9,196 nucleotides of DNA. It comes from Desulfobacterales bacterium (lineage in GTDB: Bacteria > Desulfobacterota > Desulfobacteria > Desulfobacterales > Desulfobacteraceae). The stretch covers positions 1 to 9,196 of the forward strand of contig JAKSBM010000012.1 in the NCBI GenBank assembly GCA_022361135.1. The letters run 5' to 3'. The translations under genes were made by a program, and so were the position numbers. The notes under the pieces are model-generated. The model saw nothing but the letters and a program-made list of their open reading frames with translations. It had not been told where the DNA came from and ran no database searches. Positions 1 to 9,196 of the stretch are shown one piece after another; positions within the stretch are counted from its first letter, which is position 1, and every line of letters begins with the position of its first letter.

Positions 1-1083
1 GTGTGGAACCGCCTGGACCAGCGCCTCCTCCCCTTGAGGGAGAAGGCGGGGCTGGAGGTGACCATTTGGGATCATCACATGGAAGGGGACATGGAGGGGG
101 AGGAATCCCATGTCCGTGAGACCGGCTCCACCGTGACCATGATTATCCAGGAGATCCAGAATCAGAAAAAATTGATTACCCCCATCCAGGCCACCCTGTT
201 CCTGATGGGATTGTATGAAGATACGGGAAATCTGACTTTTCCGTCGACCTTGCCCGAGGATGCCCATGCGGCCGGATACCTGCTGGACCGCAAGGCCGAT
301 TTGAACATCCTTTCTGCTTTTCTGAAGCAGGCCTACGGCCACCAGCAGAAGGAGGTGTTGTCCCGGATGATTGACCGGGCGGAAAAGGAAAAGGTGGGGG
401 ATTGGACCCTTAGTTTTTCCGTGCTGGAAATCGAGGGACGGATCCAGAATCTGGCCATGGTGGTCCAGATGTACCGGGAAATCGTCAATGCCGACGTGGC
501 CTTCGGGATTTTCCGGGATGTGGAAAAGGATCGTTGCATGGTCATCGGCCGCAGTGGCGTGGATGATATCAACCTGGCGGTCATCATGCGGGCATTGGGC
601 GGCGGTGGTCACCCCGGTGCGGGCTCTGCCCTGCTGAAAAAGGCCAATCCCGATGTGATCAAGGAGATGATCCAGGATTTGATCCTGGGCAACCAGCACA
701 CCTCCATCATGCTTTCGGACATCATGTCCTACCCCGTGATCACGGTGAACCACAAGACACCGGTGGAAAAGGTGGGTCAGCTCCTCAGGGACATGGGCTG
801 CACGGGCATGCCCGTTGTGGACGATGAAGATCGCCCCGTGGGTGTGATTTCCCGCCGGGATTTCAGAAAGGTGAAGAAGGAAAAGGAGCAGAAGTCTCCC
901 ATCAAGGCTTTCATGAGCCGGAAATTCATCCATATTTCCCCGGACAAGAGTGCGGTGGAGGCGGCCCGTCTCATGATCAAGCATGACATCGGTCGCATCC
1001 CCGTGGTGGAGGATGAAAAGATCATCGGGATCATCACCCGGTCCGACGTGATGATGTTTATCTACGATTTGCTGCCCGATTAA
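1..1083 (+). CDS. DHH/DHHA1 phosphoesterase-like protein with tandem CBS domains (5'-partial)
   Basis: This is the C-terminal 360 residues of a protein that begins before the window; the GTG at base 1 is probably an internal Val. Visible parts, numbered from base 1: a DHH motif (W-D-H-H, residues 23-26), a second metal-site motif (E-D-T-G-N, about 72-76), the DHHA1 signature G-G-G-G-H-P-G-A (about 201-208), then two CBS domains (about 240-293 and 305-357), each ending in a typical G-V-I-S-R or G-I-I-T-R strand. The DHH/DHHA1 fold hydrolyses phosphodiesters such as nanoRNA or cyclic dinucleotides, and CBS pairs usually bind adenine nucleotides and regulate the attached domain. In Geobacter-type relatives the same order continues into a poly(A) polymerase/CCA-transferase domain; here the TAA stop follows directly after CBS2, so that domain is absent. 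The gene is convergent with the ole operon and separated from it by a terminator hairpin, so it is probably functionally unrelated. The domain call is firm; the substrate is unknown. Confidence 0.88.
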   Translation: MWNRLDQRLLPLREKAGLEVTIWDHHMEGDMEGEESHVRETGSTVTMIIQEIQNQKKLITPIQATLFLMGLYEDTGNLTFPSTLPEDAHAAGYLLDRKADLNILSAFLKQAYGHQQKEVLSRMIDRAEKEKVGDWTLSFSVLEIEGRIQNLAMVVQMYREIVNADVAFGIFRDVEKDRCMVIGRSGVDDINLAVIMRALGGGGHPGAGSALLKKANPDVIKEMIQDLILGNQHTSIMLSDIMSYPVITVNHKTPVEKVGQLLRDMGCTGMPVVDDEDRPVGVISRRDFRKVKKEKEQKSPIKAFMSRKFIHISPDKSAVEAARLMIKHDIGRIPVVEDEKIIGIITRSDVMMFIYDLLPD

Positions 1084-1213: not shown

Positions 1214-2875
1214 TCAGGCGGTCTTTTTCACCAGCCGTTTGGCCTTCACCGCCAGTTTTTCCCGGAAAATTTTGGAATTGTGGCGGATGTCCACGGGAAA
1301 GCTTTTTTCCATGAAGATGTGCTCAATCCCCTGGGTGAGGGGGTTGGATTGGCCCAATTCCCTGAGGTCCGCCAAAAAGCCCTTTTTGTCTTTGATGGCT
1401 TCGGTGGGTTCGATGAAGATCACCGGGGTCTGGCGGCCCTTGGGGCCCACGCCGGCCAGGGCGCTGCGGAAGACCTTTTCATGGTTGTTGAAAATGGCCT
1501 CCACCGGAATGGTGAACAGGGGGCCGTTTTCCGTTTCCACCCGGTGGCTTTTTCTGCCGCAGAACCAGATCCTGCCCTTGCTGTCCTTCCAGCCCAGGTC
1601 GCCCATGCGATGCCAGATCTGGCCGTCGGGGTCTGGGATTTTGGCCTTGAGGTCTTCCTGGCGGTTGTCAAAGTAGTTCTTGGTGACCAATGGGGCCTTC
1701 ACCGCGATTTCCCCCACCTGGTTTCCTTCCACCTGGAGGGTGTCCCGGATCTGGGTGATGGGTTCGTCGGAGATTTTGATGAGCTTGATCTGGGTGTCCT
1801 GGATGGGGCGGCCCACGCACATGCCGTATCCCTGTTCGCTCAACTCACGGGTTTCACCGAGGATTTCATTGCTTTCGATGGAGATGATGGGCACGGCTTC
1901 GGTGGCCCCGTAGGGGGTGTGGATCTGTGCATCCCCGGTGAGCATGGATGAAAATTGCTCGATGTTGGCCGGGGAAACCGGAGCACCGGCGGAGACCACC
2001 CGACGCAGGGAATTGAGTTTGATCCCCTTTTCCTTGCCGTATTTCCCCACCCGGTTGAGCAGGGCAGGGGAGGCAAACATATTGGTGACGCCCTGGTTTT
2101 CAATGGCTTCGATGATCCGCTCCGGGTTGACCTGGGCCGGCTTTGTGGGGTCCATGTCCGGGATGACCGCGGTCATGGCCAGGCAGGGATCAAAGACGGC
2201 AAAGAGGGGAAATGTGGGCAGATCCACTTCGTCTGGACCGATGTTGAAATGGGCCTGGAGCTGGTCGATCTGGGCGTGGAAATTGCCGTGGGTGTAGACC
2301 ACGCCCTTGGCCGGGCCGGTGGAACCGGTGGTGAAGGCGATGGCCGCAGTTTCGTCCCAGGTGGTCTGGGCCCGGGGAAAGGGCTCGTTGGCCCGGCCGT
2401 GGTCCATGAGTTGGGTCAGGGTTTGTCCTCCCCAGAACCATTTTCTCCCCACGGTGACCCAATGTTTCACCTGCTTGAAATATTTGGGGCGCAGGGTTCT
2501 GAGGACATGGGCCTTTTCAATGCCGATGAAGGCCTTGGGTTTGCCCTGTTCCAGACATTGGAGCATGCGGTCGATGCCCATGCCCGGGTCCACCACCACG
2601 GGCACCGCCCCCACCTTGAACATGGCAAAGACGGTGATGAAGAACTCAATGCCCGGGGGGATCATAAGGATGGTCCGGGTGCCCCGGATGATGCCCATGT
2701 TTTCCAGGCCGAATGCCAGGCGGTCGGATTGTTCTTCCAATTGTTTGAATGTCAGTTGGCTGTATAGGACCCGGCCATGCTTGTCCCGGCTTGCGGGGTA
2801 TACGATGGCCCGTTTGTGGGGGTAGGTTTCAGCTGTGATTTTAAGCCGTTCAGAAATATTGGTATAGGTGGTCAT
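1214..2875 (-). CDS. oleC: OleC, AMP-forming beta-lactone synthetase
   Basis: A 553-residue adenylate-forming (ANL) enzyme. Visible core motifs: the A3 phosphate loop F-T-T-G-S-T-G-P-A-K-G (181-191), A5 P-Y-G-A-T-E-A (321-327), A7 H-R-M-G-D-L-G (422-428), A8 G-R-K-S-H-R-V-E-T (440-448) and the C-terminal lysine in R-H-N-S-K-I-F (K535). The C-terminal V-D-I-R-H-N-S-K-I-F-R-E-K-L block and the HRMGDLG/GRKSHRVET blocks are characteristic of OleC rather than of ordinary acyl-CoA ligases. OleC uses ATP to convert the 2-alkyl-3-hydroxy acid from OleD into a cis-beta-lactone, the substrate of OleB; it acts in the cytoplasm and in other bacteria forms a complex with OleB and OleD. The ATG overlaps the TGA of the preceding membrane-protein gene (ATGA) and has no strong Shine-Dalgarno of its own, so translational coupling is likely. 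It is the last gene of the operon. A generic long-chain acyl-CoA synthetase is the alternative, but the adjacent oleA and oleB make this unlikely. Confidence 0.93.
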   Translation of the reverse strand: MTTYTNISERLKITAETYPHKRAIVYPASRDKHGRVLYSQLTFKQLEEQSDRLAFGLENMGIIRGTRTILMIPPGIEFFITVFAMFKVGAVPVVVDPGMGIDRMLQCLEQGKPKAFIGIEKAHVLRTLRPKYFKQVKHWVTVGRKWFWGGQTLTQLMDHGRANEPFPRAQTTWDETAAIAFTTGSTGPAKGVVYTHGNFHAQIDQLQAHFNIGPDEVDLPTFPLFAVFDPCLAMTAVIPDMDPTKPAQVNPERIIEAIENQGVTNMFASPALLNRVGKYGKEKGIKLNSLRRVVSAGAPVSPANIEQFSSMLTGDAQIHTPYGATEAVPIISIESNEILGETRELSEQGYGMCVGRPIQDTQIKLIKISDEPITQIRDTLQVEGNQVGEIAVKAPLVTKNYFDNRQEDLKAKIPDPDGQIWHRMGDLGWKDSKGRIWFCGRKSHRVETENGPLFTIPVEAIFNNHEKVFRSALAGVGPKGRQTPVIFIEPTEAIKDKKGFLADLRELGQSNPLTQGIEHIFMEKSFPVDIRHNSKIFREKLAVKAKRLVKKTA

Positions 2876-3555
2876 AGAAATTTCTTTTTCAGCGTGTAAA
2901 GAGTTCCCTTGATGAGCCCGGGGGGCGCTTCGGGTTTGCGTCCTTTGATGATTCGGGTTTGATCCTGGGCGATTTTCAATGCAGCATCTGCTGTGCCGGC
3001 CAGTTCGGCGCGTTTCTCCTGGACACCGGCAAGTCCCTGGTCTGTGTTCACCAGGAAAAGAACATAGGATTCTTTAATGGGTTTTTCCAGTTTTGAAAAG
3101 GCTTTTATGAGGGTCCTTTGATTTTTCTCCCAGAACTTTCTTTCCTTGGCCGCGATTTTTCGTTGTTGGGGATACCGCTCGCCGATTTCCCGGATGCGCT
3201 GGATTTCCCGCTCCAAAAGATCGACCTCGGCGTTGAATATCAGCAGGGCATCGTAGACTTCGGGCATTTGATCAAAGGTGAACTTGAGCATTTCTTCGGG
3301 CAGTTTGACATGCTCCAGGACAATGGGGACATAGATGGGCGCATCGCCGTCGCCCTTGGCGAAGTAGAAATATCCCACCCCGCCTCCGGCCAGTAAAATG
3401 GCCGGAAGCAGGACAAAAAGAACCAGCTTTTTGACGAGGCTTTTTTTCGGTTTTTCCTTTTTCTTGGCATCTTCCCCGGTTTCGGCGGTGCCGTCTTCGT
3501 TGGGGGCGGATGCGGGCGGCTCTTTTTCTTTCTTCTTTTTCTTAAATCCAAACAT
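2872..3555 (-). CDS. Unknown single-span membrane protein with coiled-coil domain
   Basis: I do not recognise the family. The 227 residues comprise a very Lys/Glu-rich tail (1-43, with a K run at 5-9 and K-K-K-E-K-P-K-K at 31-38), one hydrophobic segment (about 43-65, V-K-K-L-V-L-F-V-L-L then a Gly-rich stretch and Y-F-Y-F), and a charged, mostly helical region (about 85-200) with a coiled-coil-like stretch at about 103-160. It ends in basic K-K-K-F-L. By the positive-inside rule the N-tail should be cytoplasmic and the long C-terminal part periplasmic; this is a prediction. There is no signal-peptidase or lipobox site evident. It lies inside the ole operon, 52 bases after oleB, and its stop overlaps the oleC start by four bases, so it is co-translated with oleC. 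Context suggests a role tied to the Ole products or enzymes, such as membrane anchoring or handling of hydrocarbon, but nothing in the sequence proves this. The superficial Lys-tail plus single span resembles FliL-like proteins, without clear homology. Confidence 0.8.
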   Translation of the reverse strand: MFGFKKKKKEKEPPASAPNEDGTAETGEDAKKKEKPKKSLVKKLVLFVLLPAILLAGGGVGYFYFAKGDGDAPIYVPIVLEHVKLPEEMLKFTFDQMPEVYDALLIFNAEVDLLEREIQRIREIGERYPQQRKIAAKERKFWEKNQRTLIKAFSKLEKPIKESYVLFLVNTDQGLAGVQEKRAELAGTADAALKIAQDQTRIIKGRKPEAPPGLIKGTLYTLKKKFL

Positions 3556-3607
3556 AGCTAATTTTTACCCCGGCGGCGGCGAAATGTCAAAATTCAGCTC
3601 TATTTCA

Positions 3608-4525
3608 TCATTGGGCCAAAAAATCCCGGATCAGTGTTAATGTTTCCTCGGGCTTGTCCTCGAAAAGGTAATGGCCGGCATCTTCAAAGCAATGGGCCTG
3701 GGATTGGGGGAAACGCCGTCTGAATTCCCGGTAAAAGCTCAGGTCAAAGACAAAGTCCCTGGCCCCCCAGAGGAAGAGCAATTGCTCCGGTTCCAACCGG
3801 TGCAGGGTTTTGGATACCCGGTCCACAATGGGCCATGCCTTGTCGCCCGGGGCAAGGGGAATGTCCTGGACGAATTTCAGGGTGGCGATGCGGTTTTTGA
3901 TGGAGTTATAGGGGGCGATGAGTCCTTTTTTCACCGGGCAGGGCAGGCGGCGTTCCGACCCCACGAAAAGGGCGGAGCCGGCAAACCCGTTGCATCCCTG
4001 GATGGCACCCCGGCCGAATCCCTTGATGAATTTGGTCATCCACAGGGCCGTGGGCAACCGTTTTTCCCGGGGCAGGAAGAAGCCGGCCGTGTTGGTCACC
4101 ACGATTTTATTCACCCGGTTGATGTTTTCCATGGCCCAGGCCAGGCCGATCATTCCCCCCCAGTCGTGGACGATGAGGTTGACCTTGCCCAGGGGGGCGG
4201 TTTTGGAAATCAGGGCATCCAGGTCGGCCACCCGGCTGGCCAGGGTGTAATCGTATGCTTCCGGGGAGGGCTTGTCCGAAAAACCGCAGCCCATGTGGTC
4301 CGGGACAATGGCACGGAATTCCGGGGTCAGCCCCTGGATAAGGTGGCGGTAATAAAAGGACCAGGTGGGGTTGCCGTGGACCATGACCACGGGGGTGCCG
4401 TCCCCCTGGTCCACATAGTGGAGTTCATGGCCGTTGATGTCCAAGGCCCGGGATTCAAAGGGATAGAGTTCTTCAAATCCTTTGGTTGATGTCTTCTTTC
4501 CATTGATGATGCGTTGGACTACCAT
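3608..4525 (-). CDS. oleB: OleB, beta-lactone decarboxylase (alpha/beta hydrolase)
   Basis: A 305-residue alpha/beta-hydrolase related to haloalkane dehalogenases. The oxyanion region is H-G-N-P-T-W-S-F (50-57); the nucleophile is an aspartate in the elbow H-D-W-G-G (D121, followed by W122) instead of Ser; a candidate acid is D257 in W-G-A-R-D, and the general base is H285 in D-A-G-H-Y-L-F. The Asp nucleophile and neighbouring Trp are shared by OleB and haloalkane dehalogenases. OleB opens the beta-lactone made by OleC and releases CO2, giving a cis-olefin. The gene starts inside the end of oleA (7-base overlap) and the start ATG is preceded by a G-rich stretch within oleA, so it is coupled to oleA. 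OleB and OleC are separate here, not fused as in some Actinobacteria. Haloalkane dehalogenase would be the call from sequence alone; the oleA/oleC neighbours decide for OleB. Confidence 0.9.
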   Translation of the reverse strand: MVVQRIINGKKTSTKGFEELYPFESRALDINGHELHYVDQGDGTPVVMVHGNPTWSFYYRHLIQGLTPEFRAIVPDHMGCGFSDKPSPEAYDYTLASRVADLDALISKTAPLGKVNLIVHDWGGMIGLAWAMENINRVNKIVVTNTAGFFLPREKRLPTALWMTKFIKGFGRGAIQGCNGFAGSALFVGSERRLPCPVKKGLIAPYNSIKNRIATLKFVQDIPLAPGDKAWPIVDRVSKTLHRLEPEQLLFLWGARDFVFDLSFYREFRRRFPQSQAHCFEDAGHYLFEDKPEETLTLIRDFLAQ

Positions 4526-5571
4526 TCCACCCCCAGCATATAACAGTTCAGGCCCGAGCCAATGCCCATCAAGGCCACAAAATCATCCGGTTCCAGAAAT
4601 CCCCGTTCGTCGGCAATGGCTGCCGTAATGGGCATGGAAACCGTTCCCACATTGCCCAGGAAGGGATAGGTGCAAAAATCTTTTTTAATGTCCAGCCCCA
4701 GGCTGTTGTAAAAGTTCTGGTGGTGGAGGGAGCCCACCTGGTGACCGATGAACTTATCGGGCTGGTCCGGGCCCAGGTTGAATTCGGCCCTGAATTTGGC
4801 AAAGGTTTTCCGGGCCAGGGCCAATCCGTTTTCCATGACCCCCTGGCCGTCTGTGCGCATGATCACCCGGGAGGTGGTGGGCATGCCCTTTTCCTCAAAT
4901 CCCCAGCGGCAGAGCCCGTGGTGGCGGATGGCATTGCGCAGGACCCCGCCTTTGATGCGATGTGGGCGGACCCCGGGATCCCCCAGGGTTCCGTCGGTGA
5001 GCAGCACGGCCGCAGCACCGGACCCACCGGTCATGGTAGCCACGGCCTCCTTGTAAAAGTCCACGCTTTTGTTGGCATTGATCTCATTGATGGTGGAATC
5101 GACAATCTGGCGGGCTGTTTCGCAGGATACCACCAGGCCGGCTTTGATATGGCCCAGCTCGATTTCGTTGGCCACCTGGACCATGCCGGTGACTGCGCCC
5201 AGGCAGGCGGTGCGTACATCGTAGACCTGGGTTTCCGGTCCCACGCCGAGCTGGTCTGCAACACCGCAGGCGGTGGAGGGTTCGAATCCGTCCATGCCAA
5301 TGCCGCAATAGACCACGGTGCCCAGGTCCTTGGGGGAGATTCCACCCTCCTCCAGGGCCTTGAGTCCGGCCTTGGCTGCGGGTTCGGCCAGGGTGTGGTC
5401 CACATCCCAGAACCGTCGTTCCCGGATGCCGGTGAGGGCCACCAATTGGCCGGGTTCGAATCCCATGCGGTGGAAAAAGGGTTTGATCCGGGCCTCGATT
5501 TCCTCCGAGGTCACCACATGGGGGGCCAGTTCATATCCAAAGGCCTGAATACATACCTTTGAGTATTTCAT
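4519..5571 (-). CDS. oleA: OleA, head-to-head acyl-thioester condensing enzyme (thiolase superfamily)
   Basis: A 350-residue FabH-like thiolase-fold protein. The catalytic set typical of OleA is visible: nucleophilic C123 in R-T-A-C-L-G-A, H277 in I-G-H-Q-V-G, N307 in L-G-N-V-G-T, and the OleA-type glutamate in G-F-E-P-S-T-A-C (E97), which in the family reaches across the dimer to act as the condensation base. OleA performs a non-decarboxylative Claisen condensation of two fatty acyl thioesters to a 2-alkyl-3-keto acid, the committing step of long-chain olefin or ketone synthesis; acyl-CoA is the known donor. The start is supported by a good Shine-Dalgarno (GGAG, six bases before ATG), and the ATG overlaps the stop of the PfaC-like gene as ATGA. 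Its position directly behind a PUFA-synthase subunit suggests that it takes polyketide-made acyl chains. FabH is excluded by E97 and by the oleB/oleC context. Confidence 0.94.
   Translation of the reverse strand: MKYSKVCIQAFGYELAPHVVTSEEIEARIKPFFHRMGFEPGQLVALTGIRERRFWDVDHTLAEPAAKAGLKALEEGGISPKDLGTVVYCGIGMDGFEPSTACGVADQLGVGPETQVYDVRTACLGAVTGMVQVANEIELGHIKAGLVVSCETARQIVDSTINEINANKSVDFYKEAVATMTGGSGAAAVLLTDGTLGDPGVRPHRIKGGVLRNAIRHHGLCRWGFEEKGMPTTSRVIMRTDGQGVMENGLALARKTFAKFRAEFNLGPDQPDKFIGHQVGSLHHQNFYNSLGLDIKKDFCTYPFLGNVGTVSMPITAAIADERGFLEPDDFVALMGIGSGLNCYMLGVEW
4527..4534 (-). promoter_or_regulatory. Likely G-rich ribosome-binding site of oleB
   Basis: GGGGGTGG on the - strand lies immediately before the oleB ATG, inside the last codons of oleA. 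It is a plausible but non-canonical Shine-Dalgarno: the GGGGG part is four bases from the start. oleB is probably also translated by ribosomes terminating on oleA, because the two genes overlap by seven bases. Confidence 0.4.
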
Positions 5572-8500
5572 TTATTTCTCCAGAATTCAGTTAGGGCCGT
5601 TGGGGTCAGACCTTCCAGTTTCATGCCCATGTCCTTGTAGAGAACGATTCTCAAATCGTCGGAGAACATGTGGGCATCGGCAATTACATAGGGCTCCGGG
5701 CCATAGCCCAGTTCCTTTATTTCAATTTCGTACCGGGCCTTGGATGTTTCGCAGGTCACCGGGCCCCGGCATTTCAGGTCGCTCTCGTTGGCGGGCAATA
5801 CATTGTAGTGTACGGCGGGATCCGAACTCACCCACCCCATGCGTTGGACAAAGATGCGCAGGGCATGGGCACAGCATTCGTACATCAGGGTGCCGGGCAT
5901 GACCATGTCGTCTATGAAATGGCAGGTGAGGAACCAATCGTCGGGATGGATGTCGGCTTCGGCAATGATGGAACCCAGGCCGAACCGGCCGCCCTTGGGA
6001 TCCAGCTCCAATACCCTGTCGATCAGGTGCATGCGTCCCGTGGGAAGGCGCTGGGCCTCACCCAGTTCGATTCCGGCAAAGGCCGGGCCGAATGCCCCTT
6101 CCAGATTACCGGCCCTCAGGGCTTCCACCTGGGGTTCGGCCAGGGCTGTCTTTTCCATGGCCACCAGGGGGGTAACCTGGGTGGTGGCCGCCACCCTTTG
6201 GGTTTCGTCTTTTTTCAGGATGATGCCGCCGGAATTTTCCACCTCTTCTTCGGTGAAGAATCCGGCACAGCCGTCCCGCATGGAGATGAGCAGTTCATTG
6301 CCCACATATCCCTTGTAATGGAAGAAGAAGAGATAGACGTCTCCCTGGCGCAGGAAGCGGTCGATTTCAATGTGGTATTCAATGGTTTCCCCCACCCGGG
6401 GCAGGGAACGGTGGAAGGTGACCTTGGCATCCAACAGCCGGTATTTCCGGCTTCCCTTCACTGCATGGTCAATGCCCAGGTAGGTGCAGAGCACCAGGTC
6501 GGCCTGGCCCGCTTCAATGGAGATGGACACCGGGGCAAGGCCCCCGTCCAGGTACCAGGCTGCGGGTTTGACATCGTGTTGGGTGACGATTTTGCCCTTG
6601 CCCAGGGAGCGGGGTTCCCCCTCAATGGAGACGATTCGGTCCACAAGCATGAGGGGTTCCGCCGGCAGGCGAACCCGCACCGGGTAGGAGTCCACAATGT
6701 CGAAGTCCGGGCCAAAGACCTTGCCGATTTTTCCCACGGCCAATTCCATGCACATGTCCCGGTCGTAGGCCGGTTTGGGCTGGACCGGGGTCGGCTGGGA
6801 TGCCGGCATCCCTGTGCTCCGGTTTTGATTGGTCTTTGGATCCGGGGCGTCGGGCGGGGTAAATTGCGGCATGGATTCCAGGGGCGGGAGTTCTCCCTCC
6901 ATGGGGACATCCTTCCCCTGGATCAGTTGGGAGGCCAGCCGGGTCAATTGGGCGTATTGGGCTTCCATCTGGGCCTGGGCCGCATGGGAAAGGGTGAGGA
7001 ATTTTTCATGGGCACGGGCCGTGGTCAGGGCGGTTTCCTCCCAAAGTTCCACAAAATTTTTCCGGCCGTCTCCGGTTTGATCCTTTTGGAACTCCGGTTG
7101 GGGAAAGTCCCATTGGGGCGTTGCAATGGGTTCGGCCTGTGACGGTTCCTGTGACGGCTTCTGGGGACTGCTGTTGCCCATGGCTGCCAATACCGGTTCC
7201 GGCAGGCAGGGGCTTTGGATGGGGAGTGTGATCCCTCGTTCTGCTTTGGGGTCCGGGGCCGAAGACAACGGCATGTCCTTCACCGGTGCCGGGGGGGCCG
7301 ATACCAGGGCCTGGGCCAGGGCACCATCCGTGGCCAATGCCGTTACCAGGGCCATGGCGTTTTCCGGCGCGGCTGCCGGGGCGGGGTTCAGGGTGAATTG
7401 GGCCCCAGCCGAATCCATCCAATTTTCCCCGGATGCCGGGCAGGCGGGTATTTGCTTTTTGTAAAGGCCCAGGGCGGTTTTCATGAGGCTGAACATGCCC
7501 GATGCCGTGCCGGTCATTCCCAATTGTCCCGGTGTCCAGCCCAGGTGACAGCCCTTGGAGCGGGCGGCCTTGGCAATGTCGCACAGGGCCTGGGATTCCA
7601 TTTCTCCGGCCGGTCCCATGCTTCCCATTTCCACCTGGGTGATTTGGGAAAAACGGATCTGTTGATCCTCCAGCAGGCTTTGCAGGGCCCGTCGGTAGGA
7701 TTTTTTATCTTTTTTGATTTGCCCGGGGGCCGTTTCCGTCGGGGCGCCGGCGGTGATGGCCGATGCCGCTGCCGTGGCCTGGATGACGCCGTAGATCCGG
7801 TCTCCGTCCCGCTGGGCCTGGGAGAGGCGTTTGAGCACCAGGGCCCCGGCCCCTTCCCCGGTTGTTGCCGAGTTTGCACCATGGGCCGGATTGAGAAGGC
7901 GATCCAGGGTGAATTGGCGGATGTCCCCGCACATGTCCACGCAACCGCAGATGAAGATGTCGGTTTCCCGGCTGCTCAGGGAGGCCTGGGCCACTTCCAG
8001 GGCCTTGTGGGCCGAGGCTTCCTTGGCCGACAGGGTGAAGCAGGGCCCGCCCAGTTTGAATTCCCGGGCCGTGCGGGAGGCCACGATGCCCCCCAGGGCG
8101 CCCAGGGTTCGGTTGAAGTCCAGGGGCGGACCCATCTGGTCCTTGAGTTCCGGGGCCAGGTCATGGTGTTTCCAGCGCATCTGGAAATCGGCGGCCCCAA
8201 AGTCAAAATCAATGCCCACGGCAGCGCCCATGCGATGGCGCAGGGCAGAGTCCCTATTGGGTCTGGGGGTGATGCCCGCATCTTCCAGGGCGGCCTTGCC
8301 GGCCTTGAGCAGGACCAAGTGCTGGGGCAGGATGTCCCGGAGTTGGTTGGGGGGAATGTGGAATTCTCCCAGCTCCACGGCCAGGGATTCCATGAACCGG
8401 GCCTGTTCCGGTGGGGAAATGACCGCCGGGGGCCTATTGTTCTGCCAGCGTTGGGCTGGAGAGACTCCATCCGGGACTGTTTCCCCAAAGATGAGGCTGG

Positions 8501-9196
8501 AAAATTGGTTCAAATCGGCGGCATCCCGGGTCATGCAACCCATGCCCACAATGGCACAGGGTTCCAGTTCCAGGGGGGCCGTTTCTAGGTCCGTCTCCCC
8601 GGTGCCCACCGGTACGCTCACCCGCCGGGGCTGGTATTCCTCCACCAGAAGATGGGCGTTGATTCCGCCGAAACCAAAGGCGGAAACCGCTGCCCGGCGG
8701 CCCCATTGGTCGGTGTCGGCCTCCCAGGCCTGGGCGGTTTTCTGGACCTGGATCCGGCCCTGGTTTAAGAGGCTGTCTTCACCCGGAGCGTCAAAGTTCA
8801 GGGAGGGGGGCAGGGTCTTTCTGCCCATGGCGGCCACGGTCTTGATGAATCCGGCTGCACCGGCCCCCGTGAGCAGATGGCCGATGTTGGATTTCACCGA
8901 ACCGATGGACAGGGGCCGTTGGAAGGAGATCGGTCCGGCTGCCGCATATTCGGTTGTGTTGAGCAGGGTGTCAATGGAGGAGAGCTCGATGTTGTCCCCC
9001 ACCGGGGTGCCGGAGCCGTGGCATTCCATGTATTGGACCTGTGCCGGGGACCAGCCAGCCATGTGATAGGCTGCGGCCATGGCCCGGATCTGTCCCTCCG
9101 AGGCCGGGGCCACCAAATTGCCCTCGATGTCGTTGGATACCCCGTATCCCTGGATCACGCCGTGGATGGTATCGCCGCAGGCCAGGGCATCCTCCA
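5568..9196 (-). CDS. pfaC: PfaC-like PUFA/polyketide synthase subunit: KS(C-term)-CLF-DH (5'-partial)
   Basis: The reading frame is open to the right edge (E-D-A-L-A-C-G-D-T-I-H-G precedes the GTG at 9158), so the start and the ketosynthase active-site Cys lie outside. Residues here are numbered from 9158. (1) Ketosynthase C-terminal half, 1-180: H47 in C-H-G-S-G-T, then K89 and H94 in V-K-S-N-I-G-H, and G-F-G-G-I-N-A-H near 162-169. (2) Chain-length-factor domain, about 200-590: same fold, but the Cys position reads L-S-A-K-E-A-S (376-382) and both His motifs are lost (M-G-S-M-G-P; P-G-Q-L-G-M). (3) Pro/Gln/Ala-rich linker, about 590-800, with a helical segment at 700-745. (4) Two hotdog folds: 801-980, with E882 but no His, and 1020-1190, with H1080 in C-H-F-I-D-D-M-V-M-P-G and E1094. 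This order matches PfaC of bacterial PUFA synthases, which elongate and dehydrate ACP-bound chains. PfaC usually has two dehydratase units; only one is seen. The gene leads the operon within the window. Other Pfa-type secondary-lipid synthases are the alternative. Confidence 0.88.
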   Translation of the reverse strand, partial: EDALACGDTIHGVIQGYGVSNDIEGNLVAPASEGQIRAMAAAYHMAGWSPAQVQYMECHGSGTPVGDNIELSSIDTLLNTTEYAAAGPISFQRPLSIGSVKSNIGHLLTGAGAAGFIKTVAAMGRKTLPPSLNFDAPGEDSLLNQGRIQVQKTAQAWEADTDQWGRRAAVSAFGFGGINAHLLVEEYQPRRVSVPVGTGETDLETAPLELEPCAIVGMGCMTRDAADLNQFSSLIFGETVPDGVSPAQRWQNNRPPAVISPPEQARFMESLAVELGEFHIPPNQLRDILPQHLVLLKAGKAALEDAGITPRPNRDSALRHRMGAAVGIDFDFGAADFQMRWKHHDLAPELKDQMGPPLDFNRTLGALGGIVASRTAREFKLGGPCFTLSAKEASAHKALEVAQASLSSRETDIFICGCVDMCGDIRQFTLDRLLNPAHGANSATTGEGAGALVLKRLSQAQRDGDRIYGVIQATAAASAITAGAPTETAPGQIKKDKKSYRRALQSLLEDQQIRFSQITQVEMGSMGPAGEMESQALCDIAKAARSKGCHLGWTPGQLGMTGTASGMFSLMKTALGLYKKQIPACPASGENWMDSAGAQFTLNPAPAAAPENAMALVTALATDGALAQALVSAPPAPVKDMPLSSAPDPKAERGITLPIQSPCLPEPVLAAMGNSSPQKPSQEPSQAEPIATPQWDFPQPEFQKDQTGDGRKNFVELWEETALTTARAHEKFLTLSHAAQAQMEAQYAQLTRLASQLIQGKDVPMEGELPPLESMPQFTPPDAPDPKTNQNRSTGMPASQPTPVQPKPAYDRDMCMELAVGKIGKVFGPDFDIVDSYPVRVRLPAEPLMLVDRIVSIEGEPRSLGKGKIVTQHDVKPAAWYLDGGLAPVSISIEAGQADLVLCTYLGIDHAVKGSRKYRLLDAKVTFHRSLPRVGETIEYHIEIDRFLRQGDVYLFFFHYKGYVGNELLISMRDGCAGFFTEEEVENSGGIILKKDETQRVAATTQVTPLVAMEKTALAEPQVEALRAGNLEGAFGPAFAGIELGEAQRLPTGRMHLIDRVLELDPKGGRFGLGSIIAEADIHPDDWFLTCHFIDDMVMPGTLMYECCAHALRIFVQRMGWVSSDPAVHYNVLPANESDLKCRGPVTCETSKARYEIEIKELGYGPEPYVIADAHMFSDDLRIVLYKDMGMKLEGLTPTALTEFWRNK
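5578..5581 (-). promoter_or_regulatory. Shine-Dalgarno site of oleA
   Basis: GGAG (within TCTGGAGA on the - strand) sits six bases before the oleA ATG and inside the last codons of the PfaC-like gene. It fixes the oleA start and shows that oleA has its own ribosome site in addition to the ATGA overlap with the upstream stop codon. Confidence 0.75.

Follow-up and report, generated by a model that had tools for sequence, protein, structure and literature searches.

In a 9,196-nt stretch of DNA from a Desulfobacterales bacterium (hereafter the window), a gene resembling pfaC of polyunsaturated fatty acid (PUFA) synthases is joined to the hydrocarbon gene oleA, and the PfaC-like protein carries no acyltransferase (AT) domain. 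Judging from the genes, there is a somewhat better than even chance (about 0.55) that OleA stands in for the lost AT by accepting chains bound to acyl carrier protein (acyl-ACP) from the synthase, which would make this a megasynthase dedicated to hydrocarbon. Linkage of pfa and ole genes is itself known; what appears to be new is an AT-less pfaC joined to oleA. This combination was not found in the literature searched, most subscription papers and Figure 1 of PMC3098273 lying outside that search.

The run lies on the minus strand in the order pfaC-like gene, oleA, oleB, a gene for a small protein, and oleC. Overlaps are present at three of its four junctions; the sole non-overlapping junction is a 52-base gap from oleB to the small-protein gene. 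By its sequence, pfaC is translationally coupled to oleA, oleB, the membrane-protein gene and oleC. oleD is not present in the 9,196-nt window. The features are as follows.

5568..9194, minus strand: pfaC-like frame, consisting of the C-terminal part of a ketosynthase (KS), CLF and two dehydratase (DH) domains, without acyltransferase domain; its 5' end is beyond the window edge
8625..9194, minus strand: C-terminal part of KS with ECHGSGT and SVKSNIGH motifs; the active-site Cys lies past the window edge
7395..8582, minus strand: CLF, a KS-like domain without active-site Cys, with SAKEAS at that place (Pfam, structure match)
6753..7394, minus strand: linker of about 215 residues, where AT-bearing relatives have some 400-490 extra residues including the acyltransferase
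5610..6752, minus strand: two FabA-like dehydratase/isomerase domains (DH1 about 6165-6752, DH2 about 5610-6107)
5568..5571, minus strand: ATGA overlap of pfaC stop and oleA start, with spacing kept in relatives
4519..5571, minus strand: oleA, 350 residues, thiolase-like head-to-head condensing enzyme (PRK09258; 3fk5 and 3row matches)
4519..4525, minus strand: 7-base overlap of oleA and oleB (sequence)
3608..4525, minus strand: oleB, 305 residues, alpha/beta hydrolase of haloalkane-dehalogenase type (by position and similarity)
2872..3555, minus strand: small-protein gene between oleB and oleC, 227 residues (no Pfam family at E 0.001)
2872..2875, minus strand: ATGA overlap of the small-protein gene and oleC (sequence)
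1214..2875, minus strand: oleC, 553 residues, olefin beta-lactone synthetase-like AMP-binding enzyme (NF006754)
1..1083, plus strand: convergent DHHA1/CBS gene cut by the contig end (Pfam/NCBIfam), the left boundary of the run and outside the pathway

In the Pfam scan, the PfaC-like frame matched PF02801, PF00109 and, in two stretches, PF07977. No acyltransferase family was matched in it, and no AT motif was found in the linker. The best solved-structure sequence match of its KS-CLF part was 6riw, ORF10. Pfam, alignment and structure match together give the KS-CLF-DH-DH make-up of PfaC, with the N-terminal KS part outside the window. We take ECHGSGT and SVKSNIGH to belong to the KS and SAKEAS to mark the CLF. 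We call the system in the window PUFA-synthase-type and stop short of naming it a complete PUFA synthase.

Absence of the terminal acyltransferase and linkage to oleA

Conservation of the linkage was examined at two levels. In the family of Desulfospira joergensenii (Desulfobacteraceae; 86 genomes), PfaC was found in 71, OleA in 70 and both in 67. pfaC is followed by oleA in 61 of these 67, and the two are on different contigs in the remaining six. Where the linked PfaC frame was 1300-1600 residues long, the start of OleA lies at -1 to +22 bases relative to the end of the PfaC alignment in 42 of 43 family genomes; because of this tight spacing, the arrangement is not due to chance. The order sample comprised 126 genomes, with PfaC counted at 53% identity or more and linkage defined as less than 5 kb on the same strand. 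Both genes were present in 82 of these genomes and linked in 58. Gene coordinates for both levels were transcribed by hand. The synteny search that had been proposed in a preliminary description of this DNA has thus been made, and the pfaC-ole arrangement turned out to be shared by the family and by much of the order. The gap between pfaC and oleA is 1.2-2.0 kb in 52 of the 58 linked order-sample genomes, and a further DH pair at the PfaC end fills it in all five loci inspected (L251-L255). In the order outgroup L240, the distal DH pair of PfaC is 47% and 46% identical to the PfaA C-terminus of the family members L069 and L076. By its similarity, the distal pair represents a domain move between the PfaC and PfaA subunits.

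Querying with PfaC gave 27 genome loci, 17 of them with OleA and 14 with PfaC, OleA, OleB and OleC together (11 of the 14 also with the DHHA1/CBS gene); several others of the 27 were cut by contig ends. In L025 (1591-2628), from a metagenome-assembled genome (MAG), pfaC and oleB have no oleA between them, through either an assembly error or a real loss, and the OleA search of that genome (G018) was negative. In L202 (7838-9118), a 426-residue protein with ferredoxin-like cysteine motifs, recognized by eye, lies between pfaC and a more divergent oleA. The host is a probable sulfate-reducing bacterium with its nearest relatives in the Desulfobacteraceae. Since 9,196 bases is the greatest length among the contigs listed for the window OleA, the window seems to be an entire contig. 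Among the best 120 of 5304 matches to the window OleA, the closest (P0002, on a 5.3-Mb contig) is 86% identical, and the named ones are mostly from Desulfobacula, Desulfospira, Desulfobacter and Desulfobacteraceae, near 70%.

Alignment located an AT between CLF and DH in L016, L018, L020, L021, L026 and L027, and showed that it is absent from the window and from the other loci covering this stretch. At the sequence level, most Desulfobacteraceae PfaC proteins, including that of the window, are without a PfaB-type terminal AT. In Shewanella and Photobacterium, PfaB is presumably encoded by a separate gene. Separate ATs were sought with the AT of L016 in 15 genomes, the pfaB family model in 20 and the AT of L020 in 23. 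No separate PfaB-type AT was found in 12 near-complete AT-less relatives, where FabD and free thioesterases (PfaT) were not searched for. In each of these 12 genomes a single AT match reaches E 1e-8; lying about 3 kb from pfaD, it is where the MAT of PfaA would be expected. In AT-bearing controls, the L020 query matched within PfaC at E 2.2e-61 or lower (7/7). The pfaB model did not reach its cut-off in any of the 20 genomes, which limits its sensitivity here; of the AT-bearing genomes, five matched it at E 4.5e-26 or lower and one more at 5e-14. Relocation of PfaB to another locus was rejected within the sensitivity of these searches: the AT-less genomes gave PfaA-type MATs, what we read as CLF tails, a few large polyketide synthase frames, and marginal matches. 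Marginal matches were seen in G007, G010 and G011 near E 4e-4 and in G018, whose AT state is unknown, at 1.6e-7.

Among the loci scored, oleA follows directly in 44 of 46 with an AT-less pfaC and in 13 of 29 with an AT-bearing one (Fisher p 8e-7, a descriptive value since the rows are related). This tally leaves out L246, L247 and 11 loci with a truncated PfaC or less than 1 kb downstream; the states of L237-L256 were entered by hand. Outside the family, AT-less PfaC (L237, L238 and L239) also abuts oleA. In G193, 7 bases separate an AT-bearing pfaC from the oleA that comes next, with PfaD about 1.08 Mb off. Loci L022, L023 and L024, from Verrucomicrobia and goat-rumen genomes, have two large KS-containing genes side by side; the second resembles pfaC and encodes an AT, and ole genes were not detected in the locus.

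In a PfaC tree of 75 rows, the starred (best-supported) branches require no fewer than 5 changes in AT presence, and parsimony counts 7; this tree came from a quick search without bootstrap and left out L005, L012-L014, L022-L026, L236 and L245-L247. An earlier tree built on 60 rows had 4 changes, with starred branches accounting for no fewer than 3 of them. All 13 AT-bearing PfaC proteins of the family have GHSLG at the active serine, and all 22 outside the family have GYSLG or GYSIG, with L020 placed outside by its tree position. In PfaB of Moritella marina, the Tyr of the GYSLG type is essential and not interchangeable with His (PMC12895367). The same paper describes PfaB as the terminal acyltransferase needed for the PUFA product, no longer-chain PUFA being detected without it.

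Ole proteins and the rest of the pathway

OleA scored 423 bits with PRK09258 (cut-off, 285) in the NCBIfam scan. Its best solved-structure sequence matches are 3fk5 and 3row, which we take to be OleA of Xanthomonas. Cys123, Glu97, His277 and Asn307 are all in place, the last three presumably having catalytic roles; Cys123 is named in PMC6463001. OleC scored 736 bits with NF006754, exceeding the cut-off of 478, and 591 bits with NF045786, below the cut-off of 900; two OlefBLtnSyn equivalog models matched it at about 590 bits, both below cut-off. OleB fell below all NCBIfam cut-offs shown, no OleB-specific model matched it, and it is assigned by position and similarity. The preliminary description had named the genes PfaC-like, oleA, oleB and oleC, and profile scans and structure matches (position and similarity for oleB) agree with these names. 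It had also reported the four-base overlap of pfaC and oleA, an overlap of oleA with oleB, and oleC as the end of the run on the same strand, all of which are as listed above. It had overlooked the 227-residue gene at 2872-3555 and the absence of the terminal acyltransferase.

The 227-residue protein has a Lys-rich N-terminus, one likely membrane helix (residues 40-66, read by eye) and a helical bundle (87-204); the mean pLDDT of its AlphaFold2 model is 80. Among the matches listed it has 22 relatives, the query counted, and it was found in 33 of 42 surveyed loci showing both OleB and OleC. Many relatives have a frame of 432-446 residues at the place equivalent to that of the DHHA1/CBS gene, which is broken into two frames in the MAG locus L016 (19224-20524).

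The other synthase genes were looked for in relatives by profile search. PfaD was above cut-off in 19 of the 20 genomes of the first loci and in 23 of 23 genomes; the remaining match of the 20 is below cut-off and comes from a fragmented MAG. PfaA-model matches at E 8e-194 or lower were obtained in 19 of the 20 genomes (above cut-off in 11); with a threshold of E 0.001 the model also matches 11 of 14 controls. The PfaC frame of G016 was the best match in that genome. PfaA of two relatives reads KS-MAT-ACP-ACP-KR-DH-FabA pair. Two ACP motifs are present in five of six PfaAs checked, and L072 has three motif matches.

In the 12 near-complete AT-less genomes, the distance from pfaC-ole to pfaD ranges from about 5 kb (G165 and G166) up to about 1.1 Mb; in G163 it is 5.9 Mb in linear coordinates, or about 0.46 Mb if the contig is circular. 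In Desulfobacter latus (L009), pfaD and a pfaA-type gene lie downstream of oleC on the same strand. The preliminary description had expected the remaining synthase genes upstream of pfaC. A complete pfa cluster at that place was rejected, as the PfaA and PfaD matches of relatives lie elsewhere, or downstream of oleC in a few. In selected open reading frames of L001, L003 and L015, the genes upstream of pfaC encode a rhomboid protein, signal-transduction proteins and unrelated enzymes.

An OleD-like gene was present as one best 3Beta_HSD match per genome in 20 of 20 genomes (E 8e-42 or lower), and a pathway broken by missing OleD was rejected on this ground. Two OleD models match best in the four OleD-like proteins scanned, below their cut-off of 580 bits. 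In 19 of the 20 genomes the OleD-like gene and pfaC are on separate contigs; in G002 some 120 kb lie between them. The OleD-like gene of G019 has an OleC-like frame next to it (L084). From these gene matches, relatives seem to have the whole pathway, in most cases divided among two or three loci.

Proposed transfer of the acyl chain to OleA

It is plausible that the system works as follows. PfaA, PfaC and PfaD would assemble an unsaturated acyl chain on the ACPs of PfaA. With the PfaB-type terminal AT gone, OleA would dock on the synthase, accept two acyl-ACP chains and condense them head to head. OleD would then reduce the product, OleC would close the beta-lactone, and OleB would decarboxylate it to a long polyunsaturated alkene. 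The small protein perhaps holds the pathway at the membrane. We infer the acyl hand-over, the product and this membrane role; docking is proposed because the PfaB-type terminal AT is lost, and no PfaB being found makes OleA the best candidate for off-loading. The missing AT thus supports the idea of a dedicated assembly line put forward in the preliminary description. Tentatively, and with less than even confidence, we further suggest that OleA replaced PfaB as the terminal enzyme. The AT would have been lost in Desulfobacteraceae, after the key Tyr had changed to His, and separately in a few other Desulfobacterales, leaving head-to-head condensation to hydrocarbon as the sole exit.

PMC6463001 establishes for Shewanella the route from PUFA-synthase chains to OleA that was also proposed in that description, and PMC4882568 ascribes such a route to the linked genes of Geobacter bemidjiensis. 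OleA yields a 31:8 ketone from the Pfa synthase in fadD-deleted Escherichia coli, and an OleA active-site mutant also lowers eicosapentaenoic acid (EPA) (PMC6463001). We read the EPA drop as a sign of direct contact between OleA and the synthase.

Several observations weigh against transfer to OleA and the replacement of PfaB. pfaC and oleA are not within 5 kb of each other in 24 of the 82 order-sample genomes with both, and they are far apart on one contig in G046, G069, G090, G133 and G141. The genomes are related, so that counts of loci and genomes are not independent events. The 13 loci with both an AT and a directly linked oleA indicate that linkage does not require AT loss. Direct linkage is missing from two of the AT-less loci, L250 and L202 (a single gene intervenes in the latter). 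L016 and L027 keep the AT inside an otherwise AT-less clade, which implies either regain or many losses. The His of GHSLG is also found in AT-bearing family loci without adjacent oleA (L231, L233, L234 and L235), so the change from Tyr to His follows lineage, not linkage; three of their genomes have OleA elsewhere, and none was detected in G146. The KS active site lies beyond the window edge, and what is said of pfaA, pfaD, oleD and a missing free pfaB comes only from relatives. Deletion of pfaT lowers hydrocarbon about tenfold in S. oneidensis, and P. profundum SS9 has no detectable hydrocarbon despite its neighbouring pfa and ole operons (PMC6463001). Chains could also leave the synthase through the MAT of PfaA, FabD or a thioesterase, for instance PfaT, and the hydrocarbon product in Desulfobacteraceae is predicted from genes.

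Release of this kind underlies an alternative that we regard as unlikely while deserving weight: the pathway would be an ordinary one with linked pfa and ole genes, like that of Geobacter bemidjiensis, AT loss would be irrelevant, the chain would be freed by the MAT of PfaA, by FabD or by a thioesterase, and the substrate of OleA would be acyl-CoA. The preliminary description had held pfa and ole genes to be known from separate loci, a view that is outdated. ole genes are often linked to pfa-like clusters (PMC3098273), the pfa and ole operons of P. profundum SS9 are adjacent (PMC6463001), and Geobacter bemidjiensis has pfaDABC-oleABCD-pfaE in tandem, with a C31:9 hydrocarbon (PMC4882568). Such precedents and the 13 loci with an AT and linked oleA agree with an ordinary pathway. 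However, AT-less PfaC is strongly tied to adjacent oleA, a PfaB-type AT was not found elsewhere in the 12 near-complete genomes (FabD and thioesterases not being searched for), and PfaB is needed for long PUFA in the system of PMC12895367.

The known systems resemble that of the window in part. Geobacter bemidjiensis is also an anaerobe with PUFA-synthase-type and ole genes in tandem, and a C31:9 hydrocarbon is reported for it; its genes form one cluster with pfaB and oleD, whereas the window has pfaC-oleA-oleB-membrane protein-oleC without a PfaB-type AT, and pfaA, pfaD and oleD of its relatives are usually elsewhere. In Shewanella and Photobacterium, OleA likewise condenses Pfa-made chains (PMC6463001), but EPA is also made, with PfaB; in the group of the window no PfaB was found in relatives, and pfaC overlaps oleA. 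Shulse and Allen 2011 (PMC3098273) describe secondary lipid synthase types C, I, K and S, which include pfa-like synthases of Deltaproteobacteria, often with linked ole genes. Types C and I differ in having a pfaBC fusion, type C being written KS-CLF-AT-DH2, whereas the window is without AT and the distal DH pair of two relatives is on PfaA.

It is improbable that the synthase mainly feeds membrane fatty acids, with the ole genes as a side branch, a role put forward for the Desulfobacterium autotrophicum synthase of Type S. That role was suggested for strain HRM2, which is said to lack fabA and fabZ (PMC3098273), but pfaC of the family is coupled to oleA and not to pfaA or pfaD, and a producer of membrane fatty acids would need a release step, yet PfaB was not found in the relatives searched. 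Very improbable is a set of remnant or decaying genes without product: the pfa genes of D. autotrophicum are possibly remnants (PMC4882568) and oleA is missing in one MAG locus (L025), but the frames of the window are open with key residues in place, the same gene order recurs across dozens of genomes, and pfaD was matched in 20/20 and 23/23 genomes (one below cut-off), with a strong PfaA match in 19/20. The short distance from pfaC to oleA in G193, with a PfaD present in the same genome, also speaks against the remnant suggestion of PMC4882568.

Chain release from PUFA synthases and the chain supply of OleA are only partly understood. Marine sulfate reducers that apparently have no terminal AT, and in which pfaC is still joined to oleA, would be a natural test of direct hand-over. 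The gene run speaks against dismissing the Desulfobacterium autotrophicum pfa genes as mere remnants. It predicts long polyunsaturated hydrocarbons in Desulfobacteraceae, which would bear on the reading of lipid biomarkers in anoxic sediments.

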